Source of the DNA: an uncultured Bryobacteraceae bacterium
Lineage (GTDB): Bacteria > Acidobacteriota > Terriglobia > Bryobacterales > Bryobacteraceae
Length of the DNA: 44,641 nucleotides
NCBI GenBank assembly: GCA_938027685.1
Contig: CALJAM010000037.1
Location: forward strand, 1 to 44,641
Direction of reading: 5' to 3'
Part shown: positions 186-31,883 of the stretch, piece by piece
How positions within the stretch are numbered: position 1 is the first letter of the stretch
Layout: every line of letters starts with the position of its first letter
Program-made: the position numbers and the translations under genes
Notes under the pieces: model-generated
The model's input: the letters and a program-made list of their open reading frames with translations, nothing else
What the model was told of the DNA's origin: nothing
The model's database searches: none

Positions 186-204
186 TGATGGATAACACGA
201 CGGT

Positions 205-1008: not shown

Positions 1009-1025
1009 TTAACCGTAAATAACTT
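1009..1025. promoter_or_regulatory. conserved 17-mer TTAACCGTAAATAACTT, copy 1
   Basis: This 17-mer occurs exactly again at 14970-14986, and in variant form at 19613-19628. Its core TTAACCGTAAA fits the palindromic pattern TTWACSGTWAA. It is AT-rich in a GC-rich neighbourhood and ends 78 nt before the start codon at 1104. A regulator-binding or promoter element is the likely meaning; the cognate protein is unknown. Confidence 0.5.
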
Positions 1026-5403: not shown

Positions 5404-5407
5404 TTTC

Positions 5408-8400
5408 CTAGAATACGCCCCGGATGGAGAACTGAACCACGCGATTGCCACCCGCGGTCTGGATGACGCCGAATGTCGCCTTATTAGCCATGTTGGTGCC
5501 CGGGGCATCCCACTGCGGGCTGTTGGTCACGTTGCTGGCGTCCGCCCGGATATCGAGATTGATGCGCTCATAAATCTGAATCCGCTTGATGACGGAGGCG
5601 TCCAGCGTCTTGCGATGCGGAGCCCGCAGCTCGGCGAAGTGGGGCGGCTCGGGAGGAACCATGTACTGCGTGGGCAGCGACAGGAACGCCTTGGTGTCGA
5701 AGTACGGATTCAGCACCTCGCGAGTTACCGGATCGACGCGGTCGCCGATGCGCTCGCGGATGGGGCCCTTCTTGGCCGCGTTACGCAGGCGGTAGGGCCG
5801 TCCGTTGCTGTCGGAGATCGAGAGCGGCGTCCCCGAGGAATAGAAGGCCCGGCCGCTCACACTCCAACCGCCGATGATCCGCGACCAGAGCCCGGTCGTG
5901 ACCCAGGGCCTGCCTTTGCCGAAGGGGAGGTCGTAAACAAAGGCCAAGTTCATGACGTGCGGCCGATCCATGTCCGAAATGCAGCGGTAGTAACGCTTGT
6001 TGACCAAACTGGTGAGGTTGTTCTCGATCATCTTCGAGATGGTGTGGTTGAAGATCACGGTCAGGCCGTGGGTAAGACGCTTCTCGAGATTGAGGAAGAC
6101 GGAGTGGTAGACGGTAGTGGCGGCGTTAGTCCCCTGCTGGGAGACGGAGGTGAACTGGGGGTAGGCCAGCCAAAACTGCCGCTGCGGAATCGTGCTCGAG
6201 CTGCCGAGCGGCGTATTCGCCGGCAAGATGCCGTAGAAGGGATTGGGAACCCGAATATTTTCGGCGGGGCCCAACTCTAAGTACTTGTCGGGCTTTTCGT
6301 TCAAATTGAAGCCCTGGTAGCCCTTGACGCTCAACATGCGGACGAAGGCCAGCTCCAGCCTGGTCTGCGCCGGAAGGGCTTGCTGGATGCTGAACTGCCA
6401 CTGTTGCGAGTACGGCAAGACCCGGTCCTGGGCCAGGAACGAGATCGAGTCACCCACCCGCGCTGCGAGCCCTTCCGAGGACCCTTTCGGCCGCGGCACG
6501 CCCCCCGGGAAGGGGTTGGCCAGCGTCGTAAACGGGGTCACGCCGCGGTCCGTCGTGCCTACGTAAGGGATCGAGGTGGAGAAGGTCGGCGGGATGGCCA
6601 GGGTGGTGTCCTGGTTGACCACCCCGCTCGAATAGAACAGACCGTAGCCGCCGCGAATTACGGTGTTCGCCAGCAGTTGATAGGCAAAGCCGAAACGCGG
6701 ACCAAGATTGTTCCAATCCGTCTTGCCCTGACGGCGAGAGACGTTGTTCACGCCGGCGAAGATCAGGCCGCCCCTGAGATCCAGACCCGGAACCTTAACA
6801 GGATTCGGGGCATAATAGTCAAACCCCCAACTGAGTTGGTTGAAACGCTCCGTGTAAGGAGTCTCGACCTCCCAACGCAGACCGAGGTTCAAAGTCAGTT
6901 TGCGCGTGACCTTCCAGTCGTCCTGCAGATAAGTGGCCGCGTAGTAACTGCGCAAAGCGTAGGGTGCCGGACCGGAGATCGATCCGGAGATTGGGATGCC
7001 CATGAGCAGCTCGGCCATCGAGGTCCCGCTCACGCGGCTGGCGGCGGCCACAAAGGGATCGGAAACCGTGAAGGTGGGTCGGAAGGTGAAGTAACCAGCG
7101 GCCTGTGAATCCGGGCTGATCTCATTCCAATTGACCACGCGGAAGTCGCCGCCGATGCGCACATTGTGCGCTCCCGCCAGCTTGTTCAGAGTGGGACGCG
7201 CCACGTAGGAATCATTGGCGCGGATCTTAAACCGGTGACCGATCATGTAAATCCCCTCGCCCATGTCGATGCCGGGCCAAGCGGGCCGAATCTGATTGGC
7301 CAGGATGTCGGGGTGCAGCTTCAGAAGCTTGGGGTCCAGTTTGTTGCCGGAGAATACGGTATCGCTCCAGTAACGGCTGAAGGCGAGCCGCAGCGAGGCG
7401 ACCAGCGTGGGGGAGAAGGTGTAATCGTCGTTGATGCTAGCGTTGTAGAAATGGCGGAAGTCGGCGTTGGGGGTGCCGCCAATCGGCGCGTTACGCAGGC
7501 CCTGGGGGACCGCCGTGAAGTGGACGGCGAAGTCCATGAAGCCGAACCGTCCAAACAGGCGCTGGCGCGGGCTGAGCATGTGGTCAATCCGCTGGCTGAT
7601 CTGCTTGGACGGCACGCGGTTCCTGGATTGCGCGACCCAATTGTACACGCCGATCTGGGTGGGCACGTTCAGGTTGGGCGCCGGGTAGACGGACATGACC
7701 GCCTGACCGGTCTCGTTCTGCAAGGAGGCGGGGATCACGTTCCCCGGGAAGGGTTGCCGGGTAACGGTGGTTCCGGTGACGACACTAGTGTAGGGGTTAT
7801 AGATGACCAGCGGCGTGCCCTGGGGACTGAGTGTCTTTGAAAAATCGCCGCGGCGCTCGGTGTCGGTGGGCACTCGGGCGGAGTAAGTGGTTCCACCTTT
7901 CCGCCCCTCCCACTGGATGGAGGTGAAGAAAAATGTGCGATCGCGGCCGTTGTAAAGCCTGGGCAGAACAACCGGACCGCCGAGTGTCCCGGAATAGAAC
8001 TGGCGGTTGTCGTCGGGCCGGGGAACGCCGCGCTTGTTGTTGGTCCAGGAGTTGGCGTTGAAGATTTCGTTGCGGATGAATCCCTCGAAAGAGCCGTGGA
8101 GCTCGTTGGTCCCCGAGCGCGTGGCGTAGCTGACGACGCCGCCGTTCGTGTGCCCGTAGGCGGCATCGAACATGGTGGTCTGCACGCGCAATTCCTCGAC
8201 GGCGTCACCGGAGGGCGAGGTGCCCATGGATCCGCCCTGTCGCGGCATCACGATGGAAGCGCCGTCCACGACGATTTCATTACGTCCTACGGTGGCGCCG
8301 CCGCCGTGCACGCTGAAGAAATGCTGCTGGGAGTCCGAGAAAGGACCGCCGAACCACTGCGACTCGCTGCGCACCCCCGGAGTCAGCGTGATAAGGTTCA

Positions 8401-8848
8401 GCGGGTTTCGATTCGGGAAATAGAGCAGGTCCACGAAGCGCCGATCTACGACTTGGGCCAGATCCGCCGACGCCGTCTGGAGCAGGGGCAGCTCAGCCGT
8501 AACGGTAATCGACTCGGTCGGCGCGCCGACGTCCAGTTGGAAGTTGAGTTCGAGTCTTTCGCCCGTGCGGATCTCCACGTTCGGGCGGATCACCCGCTTG
8601 AAGCCCACGGCTTCGACGGTGACTGTGTAGGCGCCGGGCTCCAGATAAGGAATGAGGTAGTAGCCCTCGGCGTTGCTCACCGACGAAGTCTTGACGTTGC
8701 TGGCGTTCGATTGGGCACTGACCGTCGCGCCAGGAATGACGGCCCCGGTGGGGTCGGTGATGCGACCCAGCAGGGTGCCGCGGTAGTCCTGCGCCCACAG
8801 CGCCAAGGCGCCGGCGAGGAAGACGAGGGGCAGACGGCAGGTGGACAT
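5408..8848 (-). CDS. Oar-like TonB-dependent receptor with N-terminal carboxypeptidase-regulatory-like domain
   Basis: 1146 residues from the ATG at 8848, which has GGAGG 8 nt upstream (8857-8861) and opens a clean signal peptide (MSTCRLPLVFLAGALALWAQ). Residues ~22-105 form a CnaB/CarboxypepD_reg-like beta-sandwich (GRITDPTGAVIPGATVSAQ, then GYYLIPYLEPGAYTVTVEA). A plug-like region follows (ITVTAELPLLQTASA, then VVDGASIVMPRQGG), and then a long beta-barrel with alternating strands such as YLQDDWKVTRKLTLNLGLRW. The chain ends in a terminal aromatic residue (FSIRGVF), as outer-membrane barrels do. It imports an unknown ligand, probably oligosaccharide, using TonB energy. The downstream hydrolase starts 4 nt after its stop, and the regulator-like gene at 8972 is divergent. 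It is paralogous to the receptors at 15033 and 36479. Confidence 0.92.
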   Translation of the reverse strand: MSTCRLPLVFLAGALALWAQDYRGTLLGRITDPTGAVIPGATVSAQSNASNVKTSSVSNAEGYYLIPYLEPGAYTVTVEAVGFKRVIRPNVEIRTGERLELNFQLDVGAPTESITVTAELPLLQTASADLAQVVDRRFVDLLYFPNRNPLNLITLTPGVRSESQWFGGPFSDSQQHFFSVHGGGATVGRNEIVVDGASIVMPRQGGSMGTSPSGDAVEELRVQTTMFDAAYGHTNGGVVSYATRSGTNELHGSFEGFIRNEIFNANSWTNNKRGVPRPDDNRQFYSGTLGGPVVLPRLYNGRDRTFFFTSIQWEGRKGGTTYSARVPTDTERRGDFSKTLSPQGTPLVIYNPYTSVVTGTTVTRQPFPGNVIPASLQNETGQAVMSVYPAPNLNVPTQIGVYNWVAQSRNRVPSKQISQRIDHMLSPRQRLFGRFGFMDFAVHFTAVPQGLRNAPIGGTPNADFRHFYNASINDDYTFSPTLVASLRLAFSRYWSDTVFSGNKLDPKLLKLHPDILANQIRPAWPGIDMGEGIYMIGHRFKIRANDSYVARPTLNKLAGAHNVRIGGDFRVVNWNEISPDSQAAGYFTFRPTFTVSDPFVAAASRVSGTSMAELLMGIPISGSISGPAPYALRSYYAATYLQDDWKVTRKLTLNLGLRWEVETPYTERFNQLSWGFDYYAPNPVKVPGLDLRGGLIFAGVNNVSRRQGKTDWNNLGPRFGFAYQLLANTVIRGGYGLFYSSGVVNQDTTLAIPPTFSTSIPYVGTTDRGVTPFTTLANPFPGGVPRPKGSSEGLAARVGDSISFLAQDRVLPYSQQWQFSIQQALPAQTRLELAFVRMLSVKGYQGFNLNEKPDKYLELGPAENIRVPNPFYGILPANTPLGSSSTIPQRQFWLAYPQFTSVSQQGTNAATTVYHSVFLNLEKRLTHGLTVIFNHTISKMIENNLTSLVNKRYYRCISDMDRPHVMNLAFVYDLPFGKGRPWVTTGLWSRIIGGWSVSGRAFYSSGTPLSISDSNGRPYRLRNAAKKGPIRERIGDRVDPVTREVLNPYFDTKAFLSLPTQYMVPPEPPHFAELRAPHRKTLDASVIKRIQIYERINLDIRADASNVTNSPQWDAPGTNMANKATFGVIQTAGGNRVVQFSIRGVF

Positions 8849-8914
8849 TGCGTTAACCTCCGCTGATATCATGCGCCCGAGCACCGCCCAGGTCAAGCCT
8901 CCCGAGGTGCGCAG

Positions 8915-8929
8915 CCGGTTGTAAACCGG
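8915..8929. promoter_or_regulatory. inverted repeat CCGGTT-GTA-AACCGG in divergent intergenic region
   Basis: Perfect 6-bp arms separated by 3 nt lie in the 123-nt gap between the divergent receptor gene (start 8848) and the regulator-like gene (start 8972). The position and symmetry fit an operator acting on both promoters. A following CATTAACG gives some resemblance, with one gap, to the conserved TTAACCGTAAATAACTT element in reverse orientation. Confidence 0.4.
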
Positions 8930-8971
8930 TCATTAACGTCGCTATGTTACACTAGCACCGGGGGTTGTCCA

Positions 8972-10177
8972 ATGACCGCTGAGGAACGCAGACAAGCCCT
9001 CGAGCGTGTTCTCGGCTCAGAGACGTTCCGCCATGCCGCCAGCCTCAGACGCCTCCTCAACTATCTGGGGGAGAAGTCGCTCAACGGCGAGGCCGACCAA
9101 CTGAAGGAGTACACGGTCGGAATTGAAGCCTTCGGCAAGCCCCCTTCGTATAACCCTCAACATGACGCCTCCGTAAGGGTGCAGGCGGCGAAACTGCGGC
9201 AGAAGCTCGAGGAGTACTATCGGGCCGAGGGAGCCGGCGACCCCATCCGGATCGTTTTCCCGAAGGGACGCTTCAAACTAGAGTTCCTGCCCCATTCGCA
9301 ACGCCCCGGCGTCAGGCGCACGATCGGCCTGTACGCGGGCTGGGCGGTGGCAGCAGCATTGGCGGCGATCCTGCTGGGTTTTTCGCTGCGCTCCGAACCT
9401 GGCCACGGCTTGCCCTGGAACCGGGCCATGGAGGAGATCTGGGAGCCGTTTCTGCGCAGCCCCCGTCCAGTGCTGATCTGTCTCGGCACCCCCATGTTCG
9501 TCCATTTCGGTCCGGTCTTTGTTAGGGATCCCCAACTGAACGAGCCTCAAGACCTCGAAAACTCTCCCTTCCTGCAGGCCCTCCGGAGCCGTTATCCCGA
9601 ACTTCTCACGGTGCCCACCTATCTTTACACCGGCGTGGGCGAGGCGATGGGGGCGGTCGATCTCGTGCGCCTCCTCGCCAGCCGCGGTCGTACGGCAATC
9701 GTCAAGCGCAGCAGCAACCTTTCGTGGGAGGACGTTGAAAAGCACGACGTCATTTTTCTGGGTTCTACGAAGTTCAATCCCCAACTGAAGGATTTACCCG
9801 GTGGCCTGGAGCTGGTCATGCAACCCGGCCGGATCCTCAATCTCAAACCGCGCCCTGGTGAGGCAGCAATCCTGCAAGGACACTGGCCGGACAGCGAGCC
9901 CTATCGAGTATCCGATTATGCCCTTATTACGCGGATCCAAGGCTTGCATCAGCGGGGCGAGATCATGATCCTGGGTGCGAATTCCACCGAAGGTACGCTC
10001 GCCGCGGTATGGTACGTAACCAGGCCCTCGCATGCCGCGGAGTTGGTCTCGCGACTCAAGACACGGGGCCAGTTGCCACGCCACTATCAGGTCGTTCTGC
10101 ACGCGCGCCTGAAACAAGGTATACCCATCCAAATCGCGTACCAATTCCACCGCGTGCTCGGCGAGCAACCGCGCTGA
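8972..10177 (+). CDS. membrane-anchored regulator-like protein, two conserved domains
   Basis: 401 residues. Residues ~1-108 form a small helical/wing-like domain: FRHAASLRRLLNYL, LKEYTVGIEAFGK, then DASVRVQAAKLRQKLEEYY and RIVFPKGRFKLEF. This 'LKEY.IG...FG....(Y/F).P..D..VRV.A..LR.KL..YY' pattern is known to me from many acidobacterial proteins, where it looks like a winged-helix-type DNA-binding domain; that function is inferred. One transmembrane helix follows at about 118-137 (LYAGWAVAAALAAILLGFSL). The C-terminal domain (~150-395) contains PVLICLGTPMFVHF, YLYTGVGEAMGAVDLVRLL, DVIFLGSTKFNP and DYALITRIQG, which are matched in order by the soluble homologue at 18473. With a cytoplasmic N-terminus the second domain would sense outside the inner membrane, like ToxR/CadC-type regulators. 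It is divergent from the receptor at 5408. The ATG start is preceded by GGGGG-rich sequence. Confidence 0.82.
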   Translation: MTAEERRQALERVLGSETFRHAASLRRLLNYLGEKSLNGEADQLKEYTVGIEAFGKPPSYNPQHDASVRVQAAKLRQKLEEYYRAEGAGDPIRIVFPKGRFKLEFLPHSQRPGVRRTIGLYAGWAVAAALAAILLGFSLRSEPGHGLPWNRAMEEIWEPFLRSPRPVLICLGTPMFVHFGPVFVRDPQLNEPQDLENSPFLQALRSRYPELLTVPTYLYTGVGEAMGAVDLVRLLASRGRTAIVKRSSNLSWEDVEKHDVIFLGSTKFNPQLKDLPGGLELVMQPGRILNLKPRPGEAAILQGHWPDSEPYRVSDYALITRIQGLHQRGEIMILGANSTEGTLAAVWYVTRPSHAAELVSRLKTRGQLPRHYQVVLHARLKQGIPIQIAYQFHRVLGEQPR

Positions 10178-10488
10178 GATCCGCGATTCGGGCCCCGGAA
10201 CGCCTGCCGCGATCCAACACAAGACCCGCGGCCCAGGCCTACCGGGGGTGCGCAACGGTGCCATCTTGGTCCTCCCTTGTTCCGCTCCTGTCCGTGCTCG
10301 TCGCAGATTTTCCCACCCCCGGTGTCGGCGAGCGCTTCCCTGGCCCGCCGTCCCGGGAACCCGATGAGGCCTCCGGCCTGCGAAGCCCTAGGAAGCCGTT
10401 CCAAGCGCCAGCTAGCCGCCCCGCCTACAATTACGGCTCTTCCGTGAGCTCCTCGAGCGAACGCGGCGCGGAAGCGCTCGGACCGGAG
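10178..10488. other. intergenic stretch between regulator gene and IS5-like element
   Basis: No credible coding frame or RNA gene seen. It ends at the CTAG that begins the terminal inverted repeat of the element. Confidence 0.5.
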
Positions 10489-11219
10489 CTAGGAGCTTGT
10501 TGAACATGCTGAACAAAGGTGCCTGTGGGGATGGATGACTTACTCGGATCAAATGAATCCGCCCTTGGCGAGTCATCAAAGGCAAGTTCTCTGCGCCCCC
10601 TCCCGTCGGCCTGCAGCGGCTTTTCTGGGGCCCTTCGCACCGCTTCGGAGCGGTGCTCGCGGGCCCTTACGCCGCCTGAGCCTGCAGCTCGGGCAAGCGC
10701 CGGGCATTGTAAGCCGCCTCCGCAAAATTCACCAGCCGGCTCACCTTCACCGAGCCGCGCAACTTCACCCGCTTGAGCCCCGCCACCCACTTCAGCCAAG
10801 CCAACACCCTCTCCACCAGCGGCCGTCGCCGCTGGCTCACCTCGTAACCGGCGTGCCGCGTCGTCCGCCGATCGAGCTGGACAGCAGCTTGTAGTCGAGT
10901 TGCTCGACCAGCAGCCGCTCACTCCGGAGGGTTTAGAAAAGCTTGAACAGCAGGGCGGGCGGCGGCCGTTCGGGCGGATGGGAGGCCGCTGCGTGCGAGC
11001 GTGAGCGTAGACACTGTCTAAGCGGCGCGAGAGGCCGGCCAGGACCTCATCGATCCAGGGTCGGATGGGGCGCAAGGGGTGATCGGCGGGGACGCGCTGC
11101 TCGAGTGAGACGCAGCCGAAAATCCGGGTTTGCTTGGGTCGTAGCCGCCGCTAGAACAATAACAGAACAAAATGTTTTTTTCGCACAAGCCCGAGGCGGA
11201 CTTTCCAACAAACTCCTAG
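10489..11219 (-). mobile_element. internally deleted IS5-family insertion sequence with terminal inverted repeats
   Basis: The outer ends read CTAGGAGCTTGTTG (from 10489, plus strand) and CTAGGAGTTTGTTG (from 11219, minus strand), 13 of 14 identical as inverted repeats. The CTAG at both ends fits the YTAR target duplication known for IS5-group elements, or may belong to the repeat. Between them lies a transposase with its middle removed. At 731 bp the element is well below an intact IS5-type element (about 1.2-1.5 kb), so it is non-autonomous. The 3' side shares GGATGACTTACTCG (10533-10546) with the other two copies in the window. Confidence 0.75.
10667..11099 (-). pseudogene. IS5-family transposase, middle deleted and frameshifted
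   Basis: Reading the minus strand, the N-terminal part HPLRPIRPWIDEVLAGLSRR and then, after a frame change, ERLLVEQLDYKLL match the DUF772/InsH N-terminal region of IS5-family transposases. The next recognisable segment is already the C-terminal end: RTTRHAGYEVSQRRRPLVER, then LAWLKWVAGLKRVKLRG and AAYNARRLPELQAQAA with a stop at 10667-10669. The DDE catalytic core is therefore missing, and at least one frameshift separates the blocks. It cannot encode an active transposase. Confidence 0.75.
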
Positions 11220-11302
11220 ACTGTGCCAGGAGCCGGTTCGGCAGACCGTGCGGACGCCTGAAGCGCCCCGCGTCGGATCGACCGTCAGAAACAAAAGAAA
11301 GC

Positions 11303-11308
11303 TATTAT
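11303..11308 (+). promoter_or_regulatory. candidate -10 box (TATTAT) just before a start codon; possible leaderless mRNA
   Basis: TATTAT sits 6 nt before the ATG at 11315, the spacing expected when transcription begins at or near the start codon. No Shine-Dalgarno sequence is visible. No convincing -35 hexamer is seen about 17 nt upstream. Confidence 0.35.
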
Positions 11309-11314
11309 AAGATC

Positions 11315-12562
11315 ATGCATCCCGGTCCCAAAATACGAGGCAACCTGAAGTTGTATTCCTTACTGCTGATTCTCGGATTCAGCCGGTTAGAACCTATTCG
11401 GGGACAGCAATGGCCGGTCGAGATGCCCTACCGGGTGTCGATCGCGGTGGATGCCACTGGATGCGAGGAAGTCGACCGTGTCGTGAGCCTCCCCCTGAAT
11501 TTCAGCGAGCTGCTGGGGCTTGCAGGCAGCGGCTTACCGTTCGCCCCCGAATGTTTGCGTCTTGTCGAAATCGATTCGCGGGGCCGGCTGCTGGACGCCA
11601 TGGTTGTTTTCCAGTTCGATTCGAACCAGGAGGAAGCCACCGAGCGGGGCACGGGTGGCGTTCTTTCATGGTTGATGCGTGCCCGGACGGGCGGGTCGGC
11701 CGTGCGGCGGTACCAGTTGTATTTTTCCGATCGTAGTCGGTCGTGTACCCCGGTGCAGTTCGAACCGTTGGTCCGCATCGAGGACGCCGGTTTCTATCGA
11801 GGCGACAGGGCGTGGCGAATCTGGACTGAGGCCGCCGTCTATTATTACCACCGCAAAGGCTCGGGCTTCGCCAGCCTGATTGACCGGGAGGGCAACGATT
11901 GGATTAGTTATTATCCCGAGGGTGGCCCGAAAGGCAATTTTCGGGGCATACCCAACATTGCTCCGGCAGGCTTTCATCCCGGACCTGGGGAAGGGAATAA
12001 AGAGAGTCGTATCGTGGCGGCAGGTCCTTTGCGAGTGCGGATTCTCTCCGAAACCGGGGACGGCCGGTGGGGACTTTTCTGGGACGTTTTTCCCTGGCAC
12101 GCCACGATGCGCCTCTTCAAAAAGGGTCCCCCGCCGTACTGGATTTTGTACGAAGGCACGCCGGGCGGGGAGTTCGACCTCGAAGACTACTGGGTGGATT
12201 CCAGCGGTCGGCGATTTTCGGTAGCGCCCTACGAAGGGGTGCAGTCGGCATGGCACGGGGAATTGCCCGATCCCCAATGGGTCTACTTTGGTGATCCTCG
12301 AGTGCAACGCGTGCTCTTTCTGTATCTTCACGAAAAAGAATCGGCGATCGCCGAGTTTTGGCATTTCGGTCGGGGTGGCATGACCGTTTTCGGCTTCGGG
12401 CGGGGACCGAAAGAGGGAGGCTGGCAAAGGTTACAGCGGATCCCCGCCGAGTTCACGTTCGGGTTCTTGGAAACGGTGGACTTCCGGCAGATCGGCCGAA
12501 CGATTGCCTGCCGGCTGTCGCGCGTCGCCGTGCAGTTGACCTCGCCCGAACGCCGGCGATGA
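11315..12562 (+). CDS. secreted protein of unknown function, rich in aromatic beta-strand motifs
   Basis: Start chosen at ATG 11315, the first that gives a signal peptide (MHPGPKIRGNLKLYSLLLILGF, cleavage after ~IRGQ). The longer open frame upstream runs antisense through the IS remnant and is not coding. The 415-residue protein has a first module up to ~145 (YRVSIAVDATGCEEVDRVV and YQLYFSDRSRS), which looks like a beta-sandwich. A larger C-terminal module contains YYYHRKGSGFASLIDREGND, RWGLFWDVFPWHATMRLFKK, WILYEGTPGGEFDLEDYW and FWHFGRGGMTVFGFGRG. The 'Y.G.PGG' and aromatic strands suggest a galactose-mutarotase- or lyase-like beta-sandwich. I do not recognise a named family or catalytic residues. 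It lies 95 nt after the IS end and is convergent with the FG-GAP gene (58 nt between stops). Confidence 0.72.
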   Translation: MHPGPKIRGNLKLYSLLLILGFSRLEPIRGQQWPVEMPYRVSIAVDATGCEEVDRVVSLPLNFSELLGLAGSGLPFAPECLRLVEIDSRGRLLDAMVVFQFDSNQEEATERGTGGVLSWLMRARTGGSAVRRYQLYFSDRSRSCTPVQFEPLVRIEDAGFYRGDRAWRIWTEAAVYYYHRKGSGFASLIDREGNDWISYYPEGGPKGNFRGIPNIAPAGFHPGPGEGNKESRIVAAGPLRVRILSETGDGRWGLFWDVFPWHATMRLFKKGPPPYWILYEGTPGGEFDLEDYWVDSSGRRFSVAPYEGVQSAWHGELPDPQWVYFGDPRVQRVLFLYLHEKESAIAEFWHFGRGGMTVFGFGRGPKEGGWQRLQRIPAEFTFGFLETVDFRQIGRTIACRLSRVAVQLTSPERRR

Positions 12563-12620
12563 CGCTCTCGGCTCACCGGCCTGACGGCCGCCGCTCCCAA
12601 GATGTCGATCGAGAAAAGGC

Positions 12621-14834
12621 TCAGCGGACGATCGCTCGGTTTTCGTAGAGCAGAACCCGGCCGTGGCTCCAGCCAATCGAGATCAGGTCCAGATCGCCGT
12701 CTCCGTCGATGTCAACGGCGAGGGCTCCGCAGTGGTGCTCGTCGCCGGTCCACACGACGTGCGGCTTCCACTGCTTGCCGGCCCCGTCCGCATTTTCGAA
12801 GACCATCAGCCGCGCGCGGCTGGGATCCTGGTAGTTATGCTCGCCGACGATCACGTCGAGATCGCCGTCGCCGTCCATGTCGCGCACGTCCAGACTCATC
12901 GGGCCGACGACGTCGAGACTGATGATGTGCTCCTGCCAGGTGGCGGTGGGATCTGCGGGTTGCTCGTACCAAGCGAGTTTGCCGGGCTTGTTGATGGCTT
13001 CGAAGCCCACCACGGCGTCGAGTCGGCCGTCGCGGTTGATGTCGACAAGGCGGTTCCGGTCGGGATCCCCGGGCGTGGGATGAATCACGTGCAAACTCCA
13101 ACTCGCCCCGTCATTGCGAAGCCAACGCGTGCCCAACAGTAGGTCCATATCCCCATCGCGGTCAATGTCCCCGTAGCTGAGGGCTTCGTCCTGTGAAAAG
13201 TCGCTGATCTTACGCCAGCGCGCTTCGGGAAAGGTGATCATTTGCACGCCGTAGCCGGCCTTGTGCCAGGAAAGCGCTACTTCCAAAGGACTCCGAAAGC
13301 CAAAGTGAGCCGCCGCCACACCCTGCAGGAAATCGCCCGCCGCTTGCAACAGGTCACGTACCGCGAAGGTCCCACCGCCTTTGTTGTGCGCGAGGACAAA
13401 TTCGGCATTGGCCTCCGAGCCACGGCCCTTGGTGCCCAGAATATCGATCAGGCCATCGTTGTCGAAATCATACAGGAGCGCCATGTTGCGCAGAGGCTCG
13501 CCCACGACGCGCCGTTCCCAACGGCCCTCAGGTCGCCTCGGGTTGCGATACCACCAGCCGCCGGTCACGACGTCCGGGAACGTATCACCGTCGAGGTCAG
13601 CCGCTGCGATAAAGATCGAACGCCAGGGCTTTTCCTCATCGATGACGTGCCGTTGCCAGCGATCGAGCGCCAGCGGCTTACCGCCCAGATTCAACCAGAC
13701 TTCGGCGAGCGGGTGGTTATGGCGGAAAGGCTTACTGAAGATGTCCAGATCACCGTCGCCGTCCAGGTCCGCCAGTTGTGCTTCATGCGTGCCTTGGCCG
13801 CGGTGCAGTTCCAACACGCGGAAGCGGCCGCGCCCGTCCCCGTACAGGATCCACATGCGGGCTCCAGGATGGTCCACCCCTTGGGAACTCCACTTGGCCA
13901 TCTCCGCTACGAAAAGGTCGATGTGGCCGTCGCCGTTGATGTCACCCGCGCGCAGGCTGTGGCCGTGGTTGACTTCAAAACCGAGCAGGTCGCGGCCTAC
14001 CCAGCGGCCTCTGCGCCACTCGAACAACTTCAATGGCAGGATGTTGTCTCCTGGGCCGAAAACGATCTCCGGTCGTCCTCCCCGGATGAAGTCAGCGACC
14101 ACTACCCGGGAGAACCGGTAGGCATCGTCTATGACGTGGGCACGGAATTCCCGTCCGCCTACGTGCTCGAACCAACGGCCGCCCCCTACCAGGTCCGGCT
14201 TGCCGTCGCCGTTGAGGTCACCGGCTGCCAGCCCTTCGTGCTCCTGACCTTCGGTCCAGCCGTAGATTTTTTGACAGGGCCATGTGTCGGCCGATCTTGG
14301 ATCCGCCGGGATCGGGCAAAACAGCAGCGCCCGATCGCCCTGGTTCCAGCTGATCAGCTCGGCGCGCCCGTCACCGTCAAAATCGCCGAAGAGCTGATCG
14401 TGGTGCTTCCTGCCGCCGGTGTTCTTCACGTATCGGCGTGTCCATCGACGGCTGAAATCGGGGTAAGGGTTCTCCCACCACCAGATCTTGTTGTCGTTGG
14501 CATCTCCGGCGAAGACCAGATCCACGTCGCCGTCCCCGTCAATATCGTAGGCGGCGCCTCCGGCTTCGATGCTGAGGAAATCCGGTTCGATCACATGTTG
14601 CGCCCAGCCTGCGGAACCGCGGCGGTACCAGATCACCGCGGGACCGGCACGACGGCCGGCGATCACAACGTCCTGTATGCCGTCCTTGTCCAAATCCGCC
14701 ACGACACAAGCGGTTGGCTCCATCGCAACGGGCGGGACGGGTAGCTCTAAACGGCTGCTGGAAAGATGGGTCCAGTACGGTTGTGGGGCGGCAGGTAGAG
14801 CCGCCAAGGCCAATAAAAGCCAACGCAACGTCAT
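12621..14834 (-). CDS. secreted FG-GAP/VCBS repeat protein
   Basis: 737 residues from ATG 14834, preceded by GAGG at 6-nt spacing; a GTG four codons earlier is the alternative start. The signal peptide is MTLRWLLLALAALPAAPQ. I count twelve calcium-loop repeats of the form D.(D/N).DG..D(L/V/I), for example DLDKDGIQDVVIAG, DIDGDGDVDLVFAG, DLNGDGKPDLVGGG, DFDNDGLIDILGTK and DIDGDGDLDLISIG, spaced 45-70 residues apart. This number and spacing fit a seven-bladed or larger beta-propeller of the integrin-alpha/FG-GAP type, stabilised by Ca2+. Such proteins are common extracellular surface proteins in Acidobacteria and Planctomycetes; their ligand is usually unknown. It is divergent from the TonB-dependent receptor at 15033. 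The long antisense frame opposite is a by-product of the repeated Gly-Asp codons. Confidence 0.88.
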   Translation of the reverse strand: MTLRWLLLALAALPAAPQPYWTHLSSSRLELPVPPVAMEPTACVVADLDKDGIQDVVIAGRRAGPAVIWYRRGSAGWAQHVIEPDFLSIEAGGAAYDIDGDGDVDLVFAGDANDNKIWWWENPYPDFSRRWTRRYVKNTGGRKHHDQLFGDFDGDGRAELISWNQGDRALLFCPIPADPRSADTWPCQKIYGWTEGQEHEGLAAGDLNGDGKPDLVGGGRWFEHVGGREFRAHVIDDAYRFSRVVVADFIRGGRPEIVFGPGDNILPLKLFEWRRGRWVGRDLLGFEVNHGHSLRAGDINGDGHIDLFVAEMAKWSSQGVDHPGARMWILYGDGRGRFRVLELHRGQGTHEAQLADLDGDGDLDIFSKPFRHNHPLAEVWLNLGGKPLALDRWQRHVIDEEKPWRSIFIAAADLDGDTFPDVVTGGWWYRNPRRPEGRWERRVVGEPLRNMALLYDFDNDGLIDILGTKGRGSEANAEFVLAHNKGGGTFAVRDLLQAAGDFLQGVAAAHFGFRSPLEVALSWHKAGYGVQMITFPEARWRKISDFSQDEALSYGDIDRDGDMDLLLGTRWLRNDGASWSLHVIHPTPGDPDRNRLVDINRDGRLDAVVGFEAINKPGKLAWYEQPADPTATWQEHIISLDVVGPMSLDVRDMDGDGDLDVIVGEHNYQDPSRARLMVFENADGAGKQWKPHVVWTGDEHHCGALAVDIDGDGDLDLISIGWSHGRVLLYENRAIVR

Positions 14835-14947
14835 AGGTCGCCTCACGCGCTCCTGCGGGCTGCGCTGTACCGTCGGCAGCTACAGGCAGACCGGCCGGGT
14901 GCCGTCAGAGCCATATTCTCTCAGACAGCACTCCTCCTCGTCAGCAA

Positions 14948-14958
14948 TTTGCGGTAAA
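14948..14958. promoter_or_regulatory. partial copy of the TTWACSGTWAA motif (TTTGCGGTAAA)
   Basis: It lies 22 nt (about two helical turns) from the start of the full motif at 14970 and matches its core at 9 of 11 positions of the degenerate pattern or better. It could be an auxiliary site for the same DNA-binding protein. Confidence 0.3.
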
Positions 14959-14969
14959 CAGAGGCCAAG

Positions 14970-14986
14970 TTAACCGTAAATAACTT
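14970..14986. promoter_or_regulatory. conserved 17-mer TTAACCGTAAATAACTT, copy 2
   Basis: Identical over 17 bases to 1009-1025. Here it is extended into an inverted repeat, AAGTTA-ACCGTAAA-TAACTT (14967-14986 region), with perfect 6-bp arms. It lies 46 nt before the receptor start at 15033, in the divergent interval shared with the FG-GAP gene. Probable operator or promoter element. Confidence 0.55.
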
Positions 14987-15020
14987 GCGGCCGGAGTCTC
15001 ACCCACGCACACTGCCAAAC

Positions 15021-15026
15021 AGGAGG
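15021..15026 (+). promoter_or_regulatory. strong ribosome-binding site AGGAGG
   Basis: A full Shine-Dalgarno match 6 nt before ATG 15033 fixes the receptor start and suggests high translation. Confidence 0.7.
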
Positions 15027-15032
15027 TAGTCC

Positions 15033-18000
15033 ATGACTCTCATCTTGCAGCGCGTCCTGCTGTGCCTGCTTCTGACGGTGCCCACCCTGGTGGGCCAGAC
15101 TTTCCGAGGTCGCCTGACGGGTGTGGTGACGGATCCGACCGGGGCCGTCATCGCCCAGGCTGAACTGGAGCTTACCAATTTAGCCACGGGCGTCTCCCAG
15201 AGAGTGGTCAGCAATCAGCAGGGCATCTACCTCTTCCCCAACGTCGAGCCGGGCCAATACCGGCTCACCGTCTCGCTCAGCGGTTTCAGGACTTTCGTGC
15301 GGGAACCGATCACCGTACCGGTAGGGGCCAACCTCACCCTCGACGTTCAGTTGGAAGTCGGTCCCATGACCGAGCGGATCACGGTGACCGCCGAGGCGCC
15401 GTTGCTTGAGAGCGAAACGGCTGGGTTCGGGCAGGTGGTCAACGAGCGCTTCTTGCGCGAAATGCCCCTCAATGCACGCAACCCAATGATGCTGGTGACG
15501 CTCACGCCCGGCGTGATCCCGCATACGGGGTGGTTCAGCCGCGAGGGCATCGGAACCGGGAATATCGAACAGGGGCGCGACCAGTTTGCAGCGGCCTTTC
15601 AGGTGGGAGGCGGCCGGCATCTTTCCAACGAAATCTACCTCGACGGCGCCCCCAACACCAGCGTGGATCGGGGCTACATGGCCTACATTCCGCCGGTGGA
15701 CTCTACGCAGGAGTTCAAGGTCGAGGCCAATCCGTTCTCCGCGGAATACGACCGTACCACAGGCGGCGTCATCAACCTGGTGACCAAAGGGGGCAGCAAC
15801 CAGCTTCGCGGCACGGCTTACGAGTTTTACCGCACCAGCCGCCTGGACGCGAACGACTTCTTCTTCAACCGAGCAGGGCGCACCGACAAGCCCATCTGGC
15901 ATCGCAATCAGTTCGGTTTCAACTTGGGCGGTCCCATCCGCGTAGACCGCACCTTCTTCTTCGTCAACTACGAGGGGTTGCGGCAGCTGGTGCCCTTCAG
16001 CTTTACCACCACGGTGCCCTCGGCTGCACAGAGGCAGGGGGATTTCTCAACCACACGCGCCACCGACGGACGCCTCATCGTCATTTACGACCCCCTGACC
16101 ACCAAGCGCGATCCTGTGACAGGGGCGCTGAGCCGGTCGCCCTTCCCGGGTAACGTGATTCCTGCCCAGCGCCATGACCGCGTCGGACGGGCTCTGGTGA
16201 ATTCTTATCCCATGCCTAACCAAACGGGTGACCCCATCACCGGGGTACGAAACCACTTCATGAGCGACAACGGGCGCAGCAATATGAACAACTACGGGGC
16301 GCGCATCGATCAGGCGTTCGGCGTGCGCAACCGCATGTTTGGCCGCTTCTCCTTCCGCAAGGACAAACGGACGGCGGCCAATCCCTATGGGCCGGGTCAC
16401 CCGGCGACCAACGAAGGCGCTCCCACGGACCGCGCCTATAACGTGACCTTATCCGACATCCACACCTTCTCGCCAACCTTTACGGCGGAGCTGCGCGCCT
16501 CTTTCGCGCGCCACCACACCGCGGAGATCTCTCCCTCCTACGGGTTCGACCTCACGTCGCTCGGTTTTCCCGCTTACATGGCCCAGGTGGTCAAGCCCTT
16601 CTTCCCCAAAGTGAGCGTGGCGGATCTTTCTTCCATGGGCCGCGACCGGTTCTACAATCAGGTGCGCGACACCGTGGCGGTGCAGGGCGCGGTCACCAAA
16701 CTGGCCGGGCGCCATTCCATGAAGGCCGGCTGGGACTTCCGCGTGCCCCGCTTCCATCTGGACCGGAACTTGAATTCCACCGGCACCTACAGCTTCAATC
16801 GCGCCATGACGCAGGGCCCCGATCCCTTGCGCGCTTCCGTCGTCGCCGGACATGGAGCTGCCAGTTTGCTGCTAGGCGCAGGCGCGGGCGGCAATGTGAC
16901 CCACACGGACGTCTTCACCTTGAACCGCCATTACTACGGTTTCTACTTCCAGGAAAACTGGAAACTGACTAACCGATTCACTTTGAATCTCGGCCTCCGT
17001 TACAATCTCGAGATCGGCCAGAACGAGAGCCATGACCGCATCGCTTACCTGGACTTAGATGCGCCCAACCCGCTTGGGCAAAAGGTGGGCCTGCCGCTTC
17101 GCGGCCTGCTCGGCTTCGTCGGCCGCGGCGGAGTCTCCCGGAACCTGGTCGAGACCGATAAAAACAACTTCGGACCGCGGTTCGGCTTTGCCTGGAGGTT
17201 GAAGGACCAAACCGTTCTGCGGGGCGGTTACGGCGTCTTCTATGCGCCGCAATGGATCGAGGCCTACGACGCGAACATGTATGCCAGCTTCAACTCCACC
17301 ACGGACTGGGTCGCGACGCTGGACGGCCTGGTTCCCGAGAACTACATCAGTAACCCTTATCCGAAGGGCTTCTCGTTGCCCAAGCGGGATCGTGATCCCC
17401 TGACCAACGTAGGTGCGACCATCTCCGGATGGATTCGCAACGAGCCGGTGGGCTACGTGCAACAGTGGAACTTCACCGTGCAACGACAGTTGACCAGCTC
17501 GCTGCTGGTCGAAGCGGCCTACTGGGCTAATAAGGGGACCAAGCTGCAGCGTTACGGCGGCGTCCCCGAAAACCAGCTCCCCAACCGCTACCTCAGCCTG
17601 CGAGCGGCCTTGAACGAGCTGGTACCTAATCCTTTCTACGGATACATCGAGCGGGGCGCTCTGTCCGGGCCTACCGTGGCCCGTCGTCAGCTGCTGCTTC
17701 CATTTCCGCAATACACGGCTGTGAATCGCACGGGGCCGTCGTTGGGCAACTCCGTCTACCATGCCTTTACCCTGCGCGTCGAGCAGCGCTTCACGCGTGA
17801 TCTCAGCTTGTTGGCTTCTTACACCGCGGCCAAGCAGATCGACGACTTCGAGGATCCCTTCGGAGCTCCGCCGCTCGATCGCGAGAACCTCCGCCTGGAG
17901 CGTTCGGTTTCCAGCTTCGATACGCCCCAGCGCCTGGTGATGAGCTACGTCTATGAGTTTCCCTTCGGTCGCCAGAAGCGGTTTGGCCGCACCTGGAGCC

Positions 18001-18431
18001 CGGTTTGGGAGGCTCTGGGCGGCGGTTGGAGTCTAGCCGGCGTGACGACCTTTCAGAGCGGCAACCCAGTGGCGATCTCACGGCCCTCGGTGAACGTGGG
18101 CCGCAGCGCGAAAATCGCCAATCCGAACGTCGATCGCTGGTTCGATACCGCGGTCTTCGCGCTGGCTGAACCCTTCACTTTCGGCAACGTGGGACGCCGG
18201 CTGCCCGACGTCCGCACGCACGGTCTGAAGGCCTTCGACTTCGCCCTGGGCAAGAACTTCGAGGTGAGCGAACGGGTGAGGCTGAAGTTCCGGGCCGAGG
18301 CCTTCAATGCGTTCAACACGCCGCAGTTCGCCGCGCCCTCGGGCGCGGTCGGGTCGGCCGCCTTCGGACGCGTCTCGTCGCAGTTAAACCGTCCGCGCTC
18401 GGTGCAATTCGGGCTGCAGCTGTACTGGTGA
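15033..18431 (+). CDS. Oar-like TonB-dependent receptor with N-terminal carboxypeptidase-regulatory-like domain
   Basis: 1132 residues. Signal peptide MTLILQRVLLCLLLTVPTLVGQ. The CnaB-like domain follows at ~24-105 (TGVVTDPTGAVIAQAELEL, then GIYLFPNVEPGQYRLTVSL). The plug-like segment includes ITVTAEAPLLESETAGFGQV and EIYLDGAPNTSVDRG. The barrel shows YYGFYFQENWKLTNRFTLNL and NNFGPRFGFAWRL, and ends in the aromatic terminus FGLQLYW. It acts as an outer-membrane, TonB-energised importer of an unknown substrate. The start is set by the AGGAGG at 15021. The soluble regulator-like gene begins 41 nt after its stop and is likely cotranscribed. The nearest operator-like element is the 17-mer at 14970. 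Confidence 0.92.
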   Translation: MTLILQRVLLCLLLTVPTLVGQTFRGRLTGVVTDPTGAVIAQAELELTNLATGVSQRVVSNQQGIYLFPNVEPGQYRLTVSLSGFRTFVREPITVPVGANLTLDVQLEVGPMTERITVTAEAPLLESETAGFGQVVNERFLREMPLNARNPMMLVTLTPGVIPHTGWFSREGIGTGNIEQGRDQFAAAFQVGGGRHLSNEIYLDGAPNTSVDRGYMAYIPPVDSTQEFKVEANPFSAEYDRTTGGVINLVTKGGSNQLRGTAYEFYRTSRLDANDFFFNRAGRTDKPIWHRNQFGFNLGGPIRVDRTFFFVNYEGLRQLVPFSFTTTVPSAAQRQGDFSTTRATDGRLIVIYDPLTTKRDPVTGALSRSPFPGNVIPAQRHDRVGRALVNSYPMPNQTGDPITGVRNHFMSDNGRSNMNNYGARIDQAFGVRNRMFGRFSFRKDKRTAANPYGPGHPATNEGAPTDRAYNVTLSDIHTFSPTFTAELRASFARHHTAEISPSYGFDLTSLGFPAYMAQVVKPFFPKVSVADLSSMGRDRFYNQVRDTVAVQGAVTKLAGRHSMKAGWDFRVPRFHLDRNLNSTGTYSFNRAMTQGPDPLRASVVAGHGAASLLLGAGAGGNVTHTDVFTLNRHYYGFYFQENWKLTNRFTLNLGLRYNLEIGQNESHDRIAYLDLDAPNPLGQKVGLPLRGLLGFVGRGGVSRNLVETDKNNFGPRFGFAWRLKDQTVLRGGYGVFYAPQWIEAYDANMYASFNSTTDWVATLDGLVPENYISNPYPKGFSLPKRDRDPLTNVGATISGWIRNEPVGYVQQWNFTVQRQLTSSLLVEAAYWANKGTKLQRYGGVPENQLPNRYLSLRAALNELVPNPFYGYIERGALSGPTVARRQLLLPFPQYTAVNRTGPSLGNSVYHAFTLRVEQRFTRDLSLLASYTAAKQIDDFEDPFGAPPLDRENLRLERSVSSFDTPQRLVMSYVYEFPFGRQKRFGRTWSPVWEALGGGWSLAGVTTFQSGNPVAISRPSVNVGRSAKIANPNVDRWFDTAVFALAEPFTFGNVGRRLPDVRTHGLKAFDFALGKNFEVSERVRLKFRAEAFNAFNTPQFAAPSGAVGSAAFGRVSSQLNRPRSVQFGLQLYW

Positions 18432-18472
18432 GATCCGCCCGCAGCGCCGCCCTCTGCTAAGATGAGGGCGAG

Positions 18473-19612
18473 GTGCTGCGGCGACAGGCGATTACCCGGA
18501 GCGAGCGCGAACTGGTGGGGCGCATCTTGTCCAGTCGCCAGTTCGCGCACGCACACACGCTCAAGCGCGTACTCCTGTACCTTGTCGAATGCGCCGACCG
18601 CGGCGGACCGCCTCCTAAAGAGTACGAAATCGCGGTGCGGGCCCTGGGCCGCCCGGAAACCTTCGATCCGCGCACCGATCCCATCGTGCGTGTCAGCGTC
18701 GCCAGCATCCGCAACCGCCTGGCCGCCTACTTCGCGACGGAGGGCCGCCGCGAGCCGTTGCGGCTGGAGATTCCGCGCGGCCAGTACGGCGTGATCTTTA
18801 CTCCGGCCGAGCAGGAGGCCGAGACGAGCGAGCCCGAGCGCGCACTGTCGCGATTTTGGGCTCCTTACCTAACCGGCCGCGCGCCGAACGTGATCATTTA
18901 CACCGAACCCTTGTTTTTCCGCGATAACCGCGGCCACTTCTACCGCGATTGGTATATCAACGATCCCTCAGGCTGTCAGCAGGTCCAGGAGCTGTTGAAG
19001 TCCTGCGGGTTGGGCCCGTTTGAGCCTGCCTATCATTACCTTTCCGCCGGCGAAGTGCACTGCATGCTCTCGCTCTCGCGCATGTTCCACGAAATGGGCG
19101 TCCCCGTGGAGACGCGCAGCAGCCGGGTAACCTCCTGGAACGAGCTCAGGCACGTCAATCTGATCCTTCTGGGCAGCCCCCGTACAAATCCTTTCTTGAG
19201 TTGTCTGCAGAGCGACGAGCCCTTCATTGTCACCTGCGATGCCATCGAGAACCGGCGGCCTCAGCCTGGCGAACTTCCCCGTTATGCCGGACTGCGCCGC
19301 ATGGATGGTGCTTTGGCCCGCCGAACCGAGTACGCCCTCGTCACCCGACGTCCGGCCCTGCTCTCCGGCTGCGCCATTACCATGATCGCTTCCAACCACG
19401 GCAAGGCCATCGAGGGCGCGGGGCATTTCCTCACGCTCGACGATCGGGTCAATGATCTTTTGCCTGCCCTTCGGGCCGCCGGCGAAACTCAGATCGCCTC
19501 CCGGTTCCAGCTCCTCATGCGCGTGGAAATGATGGATCTCAACGACGAAGTGGTGGAGACCGACTGCGTGGCGGTACGTGTGCTGAAGGAGACCGCCGCA
19601 ACCGTCAGCTAA
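18473..19612 (+). CDS. soluble homologue of the regulator-like protein at 8972
   Basis: 379 residues from GTG 18473, preceded by GAGGGCGAG. Residues ~1-110 carry the same N-terminal domain: FAHAHTLKRVLLYLVECADR, PKEYEIAVRALGRPETFDPR, DPIVRVSVASIRNRLAAYF and LEIPRGQYGVIFT. Unlike the protein at 8972, no transmembrane helix follows; a short acidic linker (AEQEAETSEPE) leads straight to the second domain. That domain aligns block for block with the other protein: NVIIYTEPLFFRD, YHYLSAGEVHCMLSLSRMF, VNLILLGSPRTNPF, EYALVTRRP and ASNHGKAIEG. DNA binding by the first domain and ligand sensing by the second are inferences. It follows the receptor at 15033 by 41 nt and precedes the dehydrogenase operon by 64 nt, so it could control either. 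Confidence 0.82.
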   Translation: MLRRQAITRSERELVGRILSSRQFAHAHTLKRVLLYLVECADRGGPPPKEYEIAVRALGRPETFDPRTDPIVRVSVASIRNRLAAYFATEGRREPLRLEIPRGQYGVIFTPAEQEAETSEPERALSRFWAPYLTGRAPNVIIYTEPLFFRDNRGHFYRDWYINDPSGCQQVQELLKSCGLGPFEPAYHYLSAGEVHCMLSLSRMFHEMGVPVETRSSRVTSWNELRHVNLILLGSPRTNPFLSCLQSDEPFIVTCDAIENRRPQPGELPRYAGLRRMDGALARRTEYALVTRRPALLSGCAITMIASNHGKAIEGAGHFLTLDDRVNDLLPALRAAGETQIASRFQLLMRVEMMDLNDEVVETDCVAVRVLKETAATVS

Positions 19613-19628
19613 TTAACGGTAAATTACT
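19613..19628. promoter_or_regulatory. variant of the conserved motif: TTAACGGTAAATTACT
   Basis: Matches the 17-mer copies at 14 of 16 positions. In its context TAATTAACGGTAAATTA (19611-19627) it is a near-perfect palindrome. It starts directly after the stop of the regulator-like gene and lies about 50 nt before the E1-alpha start at 19677, where an operator for the operon would be expected. Confidence 0.5.
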
Positions 19629-19676
19629 GCCGCCGTCGCCACGCCGAGTGTATTAAGAGAATTTCGGGGAACCTGC

Positions 19677-20672
19677 ATGAGCGTCACCCCACAATCGTCT
19701 CCCGCGGCCCTGGCCGCTCTGCCCCGTAACCTGCTGGAGCGGCTTTACCGCACCATGGTACGCATCCGCCTGTTCGAACAAAAGGCCCTTGAACTGTTTC
19801 TCGCGGGCGAGTTACCCGGGTTCCTCCACTCCTGCCTGGGGCAAGAGGCGGTGGCGGCTGGCGTCTGTGCCGCCCTGCGTGAAGACGACTACATTACCAG
19901 CACGCACCGGGGACACGGCCACGTGCTCGCCAAAGGACTCGCTATGGATCGCATGATGGCGGAACTGTACGGCAAAACGACGGGCTATTGCAAGGGCAAG
20001 GGCGGCTCCATGCACATCGCCGACTTCTCCTGCGGCGTTTTGGGAGCCAACGGCATCGTAGCGGCGGGACTGCCCATCGCCACCGGCGCCGCGCTTTCCG
20101 CTCAGATGCGGAGAAGCGGCCAGGTGGTGGCGGCATTCTTCGGCGACGGGGCGACCAGCCAGGGCGCCTTCCACGAAGCCGTCAACCTGGCAGCGGTCTG
20201 GAAATTGCCCGTGGTCTACGTCTGCGAGAACAATCACTACGCGGTCTCCACTCCGCTCGAGCGGCAGATGCGCATCGCGTCGGTGAGCGAGAGAGCCGCG
20301 GCCTACGGCATCCCGGGTATCACGGTCGATGGCAACGATGTGGTTGCGGTCTACCAGGCGGCCGGCGACCTCATCGAGCGCGCCCGGCGAGGCGAAGGAC
20401 CTGCGCTTTTGGAATGCCGTACGTATCGCTGGCTCGGGCACTATGTCGGCGATCCCGCTACGTACCGCCCTCCCGAGGAGTTGGCCTGGTGGAAGAGTCG
20501 CGACCCGCTGCTGATCTTCGAGCGCCGCCTCCTGCAAGAGGCGGACTTCAGCGAGCAAGAGCTCGCGTTGGTCCGCCGGGAAGCTTCGGATGAGCTCGAG
20601 GCCGCCGTCGACTTCGCCCGCCGCAGTCCCGCTCCCCGCCCGGAAGACGCTCTGGAGGATGTGTGGCCATGA
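19677..20672 (+). CDS. thiamine-diphosphate-dependent 2-oxoacid (pyruvate/acetoin-type) dehydrogenase E1, alpha subunit
   Basis: 331 residues, the usual length for E1-alpha of pyruvate, branched-chain or acetoin dehydrogenases. Together with the beta subunit it decarboxylates (or cleaves) its substrate on thiamine diphosphate and passes the acyl group to a lipoyl lysine. The ThDP/Mg2+ motif is GDG (156-158) with ENN (184-186), in FFGDGATSQGAFHEAVNLAA and YVCENNHYAVSTP. The conserved THRGHGH (76-82), GKGGSMH (107-113) and GANGIVAAGLP regions are intact. GGGGAA lies before the ATG. It opens an operon whose next gene overlaps by ATGA. The substrate cannot be deduced; acetoin-type enzymes are the closest in subunit size. 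First gene after the palindrome at 19611. Confidence 0.92.
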   Translation: MSVTPQSSPAALAALPRNLLERLYRTMVRIRLFEQKALELFLAGELPGFLHSCLGQEAVAAGVCAALREDDYITSTHRGHGHVLAKGLAMDRMMAELYGKTTGYCKGKGGSMHIADFSCGVLGANGIVAAGLPIATGAALSAQMRRSGQVVAAFFGDGATSQGAFHEAVNLAAVWKLPVVYVCENNHYAVSTPLERQMRIASVSERAAAYGIPGITVDGNDVVAVYQAAGDLIERARRGEGPALLECRTYRWLGHYVGDPATYRPPEELAWWKSRDPLLIFERRLLQEADFSEQELALVRREASDELEAAVDFARRSPAPRPEDALEDVWP

Positions 20673-23012: not shown

Positions 23013-23070
23013 GCGTATGCAAAAGGTATCCGAGTCTGGATTGCGAACTGACACGCAGTCGGCGAGGACC

Positions 23071-31879: not shown

Positions 31880-31883
31880 GATC

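Follow-up and report, generated by a model that had tools for sequence, protein, structure and literature searches.

Regulators of the CadC/ToxR kind join an N-terminal winged helix, a single transmembrane (TM) helix and a C-terminal domain beyond it, and the same layout is predicted for the product of a gene at position 8972 of the window, as we call the whole 44,641-nucleotide stretch analysed here (contig CALJAM010000037.1 of assembly GCA_938027685.1, an uncultured Bryobacteraceae bacterium). A homologous protein encoded at 18473 differs from CadC and ToxR in that it has no TM helix. The best reading is that the 8972 and 18473 proteins, each encoded beside an Oar-like TonB-dependent receptor, belong to a family, common in Bryobacteraceae, that represents a novel form of this kind of regulator. 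Further differences from CadC/ToxR are N-domains that escape Pfam recognition and are modelled without the N-terminal sheet, a sensor whose fold belongs to a different family, genes often paired with those of Oar-like receptors, and the existence of a soluble sister clade. The DNA-binding domain of CadC has four strands before its helices, according to part of PMC5430869, and the absence of these strands from our models sets both proteins apart from plain CadC-type members as described there.

The winged-helix fold, together with direct-repeat sites about 11 base pairs (bp) apart whose binding is predicted here, also recalls the OmpR/PhoB response regulators; passages of PMC3798270 state that ArcA binds direct repeats with an 11-bp centre-to-centre spacing, and that the spacing of the PhoB box is the same. 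Unlike these regulators, neither protein has a receiver domain (Pfam), and each would hold a presumed sensor and a DNA-binding domain in one chain. The C-domain shares its fold with the flavodoxin-like/CBD region of BcsB and with the N-domains of GH67, GH115 and GH84 enzymes, but here it is part of a regulator and its sequence kinship to BcsB and the GH67 N-domains is not detectable. Pairing of a regulator gene with a TonB-dependent receptor is a feature of FecR/FecI signalling, where FecR contacts the TonB receptor FecA; in contrast, the present system is one-component, and Pfam found neither a FecR domain nor a sigma factor in the 8972 and 18473 proteins. A census of membrane-bound regulators that used Pfam DNA-binding models reported Acidobacteriae to be rich in them, in the sections of PMC10269533 that concern us, and it would probably miss most members of the present family because Pfam fails on their N-domains.

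The two proteins are probably one-component regulators that act locally on the uptake and catabolism of polysaccharide, with 8972 sensing in the periplasm and 18473 in the cytoplasm. This reading draws on computed homology, predicted folds, receptor linkage and shared DNA sites, and on a soluble-clade site that in this genome is confined to the neighbourhood of its regulator; the topology would follow from the models, and activation rather than repression is presumed. The computational case for local targets is good. The four genes concerned are:

8972..10177, + strand: membrane-anchored regulator, with a predicted winged helix (residues ~1-108), a TM helix (~120-140) and a BcsB/GH67N-like C-domain (~150-396)
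5408..8848, - strand: Oar-like TonB-dependent receptor, OMP_b-brl_4 and CarboxypepD_reg (Pfam), divergent from 8972
15033..18431, + strand: Oar-like TonB-dependent receptor, OMP_b-brl_4 and CarboxypepD_reg (Pfam), with 18473 beginning 41 bp after it
18473..19612, + strand: soluble regulator, with a predicted winged helix (~9-111), a short linker and a C-domain of the same kind (~122-370)

The open reading frames 8972-10177 and 18473-19612 (GTG start) encode 401 and 379 amino acids. A sequence-only reading of the window had described them as homologous two-domain proteins with matching blocks in the same order, and this was borne out by a full-length BLASTP alignment (26% identity, 378 columns, 124 bits, E=2e-36 in a single comparison) in which the quoted blocks follow one another as stated. 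The TM helix that it had placed between the domains of one protein only was also found: the hydropathy scan peaks at 1.98 between the domains of 8972 (IGLYAGWAVAAALAAILLG), where the model agrees on one helix at ~120-140, versus -0.54 in 18473, whose linker has no helix in the model and, like those of all 13 proteins of its clade, no hydrophobic segment. The proposal of membrane and soluble forms in one family is borne out; in a tree of 111 proteins these 13 soluble forms are set apart by a branch with an SH-aLRT of 100. Proteins were called soluble when the linker had fewer than 30 residues and no segment above 1.3; six more of the 114 proteins, with weak segments (0.35-1.46, one of them a fragment), were classed as membrane forms, and because of this a second soluble origin (L155) may exist. 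The tree was built by a quick method with weak deep forks, leaving out three of 114 proteins shorter than 350 amino acids, and genes were called with a hexamer script made for this analysis.

Both proteins were modelled from alignments of 26 and 24 rows (window and genome contig sequences), with a mean pLDDT of 91.2 for 8972 and 90.1 for 18473. The N-domain model comprises four helices followed by a beta-hairpin; in 8972 the recognition helix (H67-85) precedes a wing hairpin (E92-95/E104-107), and the arrangement in 18473 is alike. The solved neighbours listed were SaeR (Z 7.0 and 7.6), CadC (6.5) and PhoB (6.5 and 6.8). Alignment of the N-domain profile with four Trans_reg_C proteins of the same genome gave an hhalign probability of 73% (E 3e-5), versus 0.1-2% for three unrelated alignments; it covers both the first helix of the core and the recognition helix (VRIQ..KLRQKL on VDVHI..LRQKL). 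In five of 37 relatives the N-domain is matched by Pfam Trans_reg_C at E<=0.1, the lowest E being 2.4e-5. A nucleic-acid-binding fold in the N-domain had been set beforehand as a test, and a winged helix with these neighbours and this alignment is what the models predict. The computed fold is that of a divergent OmpR/PhoB/CadC-like winged helix, and both proteins are predicted to bind DNA. At E<=0.001 the N-domain profile matched only 8972 and 18473 in the 3.93-Mb genome. Neither the N-domain nor the C-domain profile gave anything usable against PDB sequences, the weak matches (de novo proteins, flavodoxin, cytoglobin) being set aside; NCBIfam returned no match for the two proteins, PADLOC gave none, and Rfam returned none at gathering scores in positions 1-20000.

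The C-domains of the two models matched BcsB with Z 12.1 (171 residues, 3.5 A) and 11.5, GH67 N-domains with Z 10.7 for each model, an archaeal S-layer anchoring domain with 9.7 and 10.2, GH115 with 9.2 and 9.8, and GH84 with 8.8 and 9.1; Foldseek alone gave weak matches (best E 5e-4 and 2.4e-3). Since the C-domain shows no detectable sequence kinship with BcsB or GH67N, the fold names no ligand. The C-domain presumably acts as a ligand sensor, and its ligand may be a carbohydrate of the uronate type. A role as an enzyme or structural adaptor seems most improbable: the fold does occur in glycosidase N-domains and in BcsB, but the glycosidase ranges matched are N-terminal parts, which we take to be non-catalytic, and of the 155 C-domain hits counted, with duplicates, in the loci retrieved, 153 also carry the winged helix. 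The window itself contains a GH115 gene, and solved GH115 enzymes have an N-terminal part with the C-domain fold of the regulators.

The receptor genes beside the regulators are placed as the sequence-only reading had them, one divergent from 8972 and one directly upstream of 18473. The gap between 8972 and receptor 5408 is 123 bp if the receptor starts at 8848, as the coding score indicates, and the start moves to 8896 if a TTG codon is used. Such a neighbour is not rare in itself, because the 3.93-Mb genome has 65 Oar-like receptor genes (66 matches, one gene being in two pieces). A neighbourhood count over 116 distinct family members, the two of the window included, revealed the expected enrichment beside homologues: an Oar-like receptor was found at -1 in 55 of 115 members, 49 of them divergent, versus 34/720 at three to eight positions away, with 13/98 at -2, 4/87 at -3, 15/111 at +1 and 4/97 at +2 (Fisher p of 1e-30 for -1 and 9e-4 for +1, on non-independent rows). 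With one representative per 35%-identity cluster, 11 of 21 had the receptor at -1. By tier the rates were 18/26 and 15/21 in two tiers, then 6/18, 5/12 and, in the lowest, 3/21; they do not describe a random sample, because a best match to 8972 was the main ground for picking a locus. The idea of a receptor-linked sensor/regulator family thus holds for the predicted winged-helix fold and the linkage, while DNA binding and sensing keep the rank of predictions.

If these were DNA-binding regulators of other genes, receptor linkage would merely follow from shared polysaccharide loci. Sixty of the 115 members have no receptor at -1, and three of 18 proteins with the same N-domain and other C-termini do have one there, as such an origin would allow. 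We regard it as very unlikely, since the linkage peaks at -1, drops at -2 and again at -3 and is mostly divergent, and the shared DNA sites described below sit inside the intergenic regions.

The linkage also bears on a rather unlikely alternative, in which the C-domain senses the receptor itself, the membrane form contacting the periplasmic CarboxypepD_reg or plug domain and reporting its occupancy to the winged helix. The 49 divergent pairs among 115 members would suit this, as would the N-terminal CarboxypepD_reg domain of the receptors and the action of BcsB domains through protein contacts in an envelope complex, as part of PMC11379886 describes it. In the soluble form, however, the same C-domain is cytoplasmic and would have no access to a receptor, and many membrane forms have no adjoining receptor. 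Regulation by the adjoining 8972- and 18473-type genes would predict a switch, an operator and a regulon for individual receptors, whose substrates could then be sought via the regulator.

For the membrane form, 46 divergent intergenic regions were kept (three of 49 had a gap outside 20-400 bp), and the 45 of at least 40 bp were submitted to an unsupervised motif search. A common 22-bp motif, aaACCgGTtAatTacCGGTtAc, was found with 38-40 sites in the best runs and a log-likelihood of 214, versus 70-84 in four shuffles, 81-91 in four equal samples of other intergenic regions and 81-84 in three more control draws with equal restarts. As a control for common ancestry of the divergent regions, the intergenic regions downstream of these members were run too, and the log-likelihood per region was 4.8 for the divergent versus 2.7 for the downstream set (31 regions, with a different consensus). 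Without the clade of clearest sites the log-likelihood was 133 for 37 regions, and the matrix trained with this clade left out scored at least 11.8 bits in all eight held-out regions, versus at least 10 bits in 10 of 289 controls (340 regions less 51 shorter than 60 bp). A lag of 11 bp was the strongest of lags 5-30 (z 5.1-6.4 in 43 regions, much of it contributed by the clade with the clearest sites), and lags 10 and 12 gave z 2.5-3.4. These sites are putative operators, made of tandem half-sites 10-11 bp apart near the regulator's own gene. The one between 8972 and its receptor is:

8915..8936, no strand assigned: tandem site CCGGTTGTAAA-CCGGTCATTAA with an 11-bp period, between 8972 and receptor 5408

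This element, which the sequence-only reading had picked out, belongs to a motif that recurs in loci of other genomes, with modest individual support. It scores 16.8 bits, the best of the window with the window in training, and position 3397 has 16.7. A palindrome, CAGCCGGTAGGTTACCGGCTG, lies at 3398-3418 in a stretch free of gene calls (2400-3870); its motif match is about equal to that of the 8915 site and it has no obvious target. The ACCGGTTA motif was rejected as a general Oar-promoter element, since 4 of 63 genome receptor promoters reached 10 bits versus 13 of 289 controls (63 of the 65 receptor genes, with start codons assigned by script). Scans for sigma-70 elements were uninformative.

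The soluble clade has a site of its own. The pattern TTTACNGTAAA, drawn from the upstream regions of receptors in the window, L094 and L095, had 11 intergenic and two genic matches at one mismatch in 13 soluble-form loci, including new ones in L084, L085 and L088, and elsewhere six intergenic matches in 178 kb and ten genic in 1.6 Mb. A longer pattern drawn from these matches, AAGTWATTTACSGTWAA, occurs five times in the window at <=3 mismatches (chance mean 0.04); at <=2 mismatches the 3.93-Mb genome has three matches to it, every one in the window (backward control 0). Window sites include:

14970..14986, - strand: AAGTTATTTACGGTTAA, a soluble-clade site lying 46 bp upstream of receptor 15033
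14942..14958, + strand: weaker soluble-clade match with 3 mismatches, the second one ahead of receptor 15033
19613..19629, - strand: soluble-clade site CAGTAATTTACCGTTAA, 47 bp before operon 19677
1009..1025, - strand: soluble-clade site AAGTTATTTACGGTTAA, before the gene at 1104/1155

The 14970 element, also pointed out earlier, is therefore a member of another motif than the 8915 element, and this motif too recurs in loci of other genomes. At <=3 mismatches the 13 soluble-form loci (232 kb) contain 17 matches, all intergenic and in seven of the loci, with two pairs overlapping on opposite strands; the other loci (1.54 Mb) contain six, one of them intergenic, after removal of duplicates (five of 11 background matches were copies of soluble-form loci, and other duplicates were also dropped). 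For ten of the 17, a start codon follows at a distance of 43-67 bp; eight of these ten read away from the gene, and of the remaining two, one weak match reads towards the gene and one lies between divergent genes. Such constancy of side and distance would be in keeping with an activator. The genes that follow include receptors, an E1-dehydrogenase operon, a transketolase and an alcohol dehydrogenase. In one locus (L088, G119:C290) three perfect sites lie within ~8 kb of the soluble regulator; two of them precede receptors and the third precedes a transketolase.

Ownership of the shared sites by another regulator, or a role as promoter elements, is distinctly unlikely. Binding by the 8972 and 18473 proteins is itself a prediction, the hexamers CCGTTA/CGGTTA found in 27 of 45 family regions also occur in 8 of 30 receptor promoters without a family neighbour versus 22 of 340 other regions, and a motif match at 39925 adjoins a LacI-type gene, all of which would fit a different owner. 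Against this, the 63 receptor promoters of the genome are together not enriched for the membrane-form motif, and at <=2 mismatches three of three soluble-clade sites here, and six of 11 in other genomes with the form, are close to the soluble gene. The six are on the regulator's own contig within ~8 kb (one in G130, two in G145, three in G119), and the other five lie elsewhere (three in G194, one in G205, one in G119). At <=1 mismatch there are six sites in genomes with the soluble form, five of them near the regulator, and none in 11 genomes without it, where four occur at <=2 mismatches (control 21).

As local regulators, the two proteins would work as follows. The winged helix of the N-domain would bind tandem half-sites near its own gene. 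If it does bind DNA, the sensor of 8972 would be in the periplasm, because one membrane helix separates the domains, and 8972 would control receptor 5408, from which it is divergent, together with the lyase-like gene that follows this receptor. The 18473 protein, without a helix, would have its sensor in the cytoplasm and act on receptor 15033, on the operon for sugar oxidation at 19677 and on the gene at 1104/1155. The likeliest ligands would be fragments of a uronic-acid-rich polysaccharide outside and a breakdown product inside. A bolder version, which we hold to be possible but doubtful, is that one glycan-related domain, shared with the alpha-glucuronidases GH67/GH115 and with BcsB, was turned into a two-compartment sensor of periplasmic uronic-acid oligosaccharides and a cytoplasmic breakdown product, coupling Oar-like uptake to catabolism, with a small regulon for each member.

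Several results weigh against local regulation of this kind. Charge bias gives no topology for the membrane forms, K and R being more frequent ahead of the helix in 49 of 95. Pfam found no family at E<=0.1 in either protein, the N-domain Z values (6.5-7.6) are middling, and the N-terminal strands of OmpR-type domains are absent, as both models begin with a helix and have no strand before residue 92 or 96. The hhalign probabilities of the C-domain were 1.9% with two BcsB and 1.1% with GH67N, in a weak test that gave only 3.4% for GH67N versus BcsB itself. Besides the members without a receptor at -1 mentioned above, a whole clade of 12 (L080, L144-L154) has none at -1 or +1. With its own clade held out, the 8915 site (8912 in that scan) drops to 11.3 bits and fifth place in the window; in the same hold-out it ranks third of the 63 genome receptor promoters, with three of 289 controls above it. 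Under the matrix trained without the clade of clearest sites, receptor promoters without a family neighbour reached at least 10 bits in 3 of 30 cases. A genome search with an idealised membrane-form pattern found two places, the 8915 site and one on another contig, and is uninformative because the backward control matched more often (six). Both the hold-out of its own clade and this backward control weaken the view that the motif alone singles out the 8915 site. At <=3 mismatches, 6 of the 13 soluble-form loci lack the soluble-clade site, and at <=2 mismatches six of the 11 other genomes with the form have no site and two have it only far away. Their summed count (11) equals that of the backward control (also 11), and for this reason position, not number, is the evidence for this site.

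The genes around the regulators give the window the look of a polysaccharide locus of a soil bacterium. Two features stand directly beside the regulator and receptor pairs:

3871..5403, - strand: Pectate_lyase_2-like protein directly behind receptor 5408
19677..26675, + strand: presumed target operon, with E1 dehydrogenase alpha/beta, lipoyl protein, Gfo/Idh/MocA oxidoreductase, Zn-alcohol dehydrogenase, SDR and a split transketolase

The order of regulator, receptor and lyase-like gene is kept in loci of three other genomes (L031, L032, L098). Elsewhere the window encodes GH28, GH115, GH39-like and enolase-superfamily enzymes, MFS, Gfo/Idh/MocA and a split transketolase; the GH28, GH115, GH39-like and enolase-superfamily genes at 26675-36423 suggest a pectin or glucuronoxylan locus. 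Among 95 genes within two places of divergent members, FAD_oxidored (6), Beta_helix (5), Pectate_lyase_2 (4) and Sulfatase (3) were counted, and none of these appears among the best 25 of 157 families of the far set (95 of 216 genes at least five places away), small numbers that offer a hint only. The proteins 1155-2399 and 11315-12562 have no Pfam match, and a soluble-clade site lies upstream of the former. A third Oar-like receptor is encoded at 36479-39910 (- strand), with a LacI-type regulator (39949-40983) just upstream, so that of the three receptors in the window two are beside regulators of the present family and one is beside a LacI type.

Going by the matches listed (E<=0.001), 184 of 200 genomes in the order have matches to 8972, and 148 of 150 in the family have matches to 18473, many of the weaker ones covering the N-domain alone. 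With the C-domain profile, matches came from 36 of 297 genomes in the phylum, and 26 of these belong to the same class. A keyword search of the available literature found no published account of this regulator family. Named records of homologues come from Bryobacteraceae, Acidobacteriaceae and other Acidobacteriota. Single matches outside the phylum (L053, L047) come from Lutibacter (Bacteroidota; residues 10-346, nearly full-length) and Aliishimia (N-domain), a hint of wider spread or transfer.

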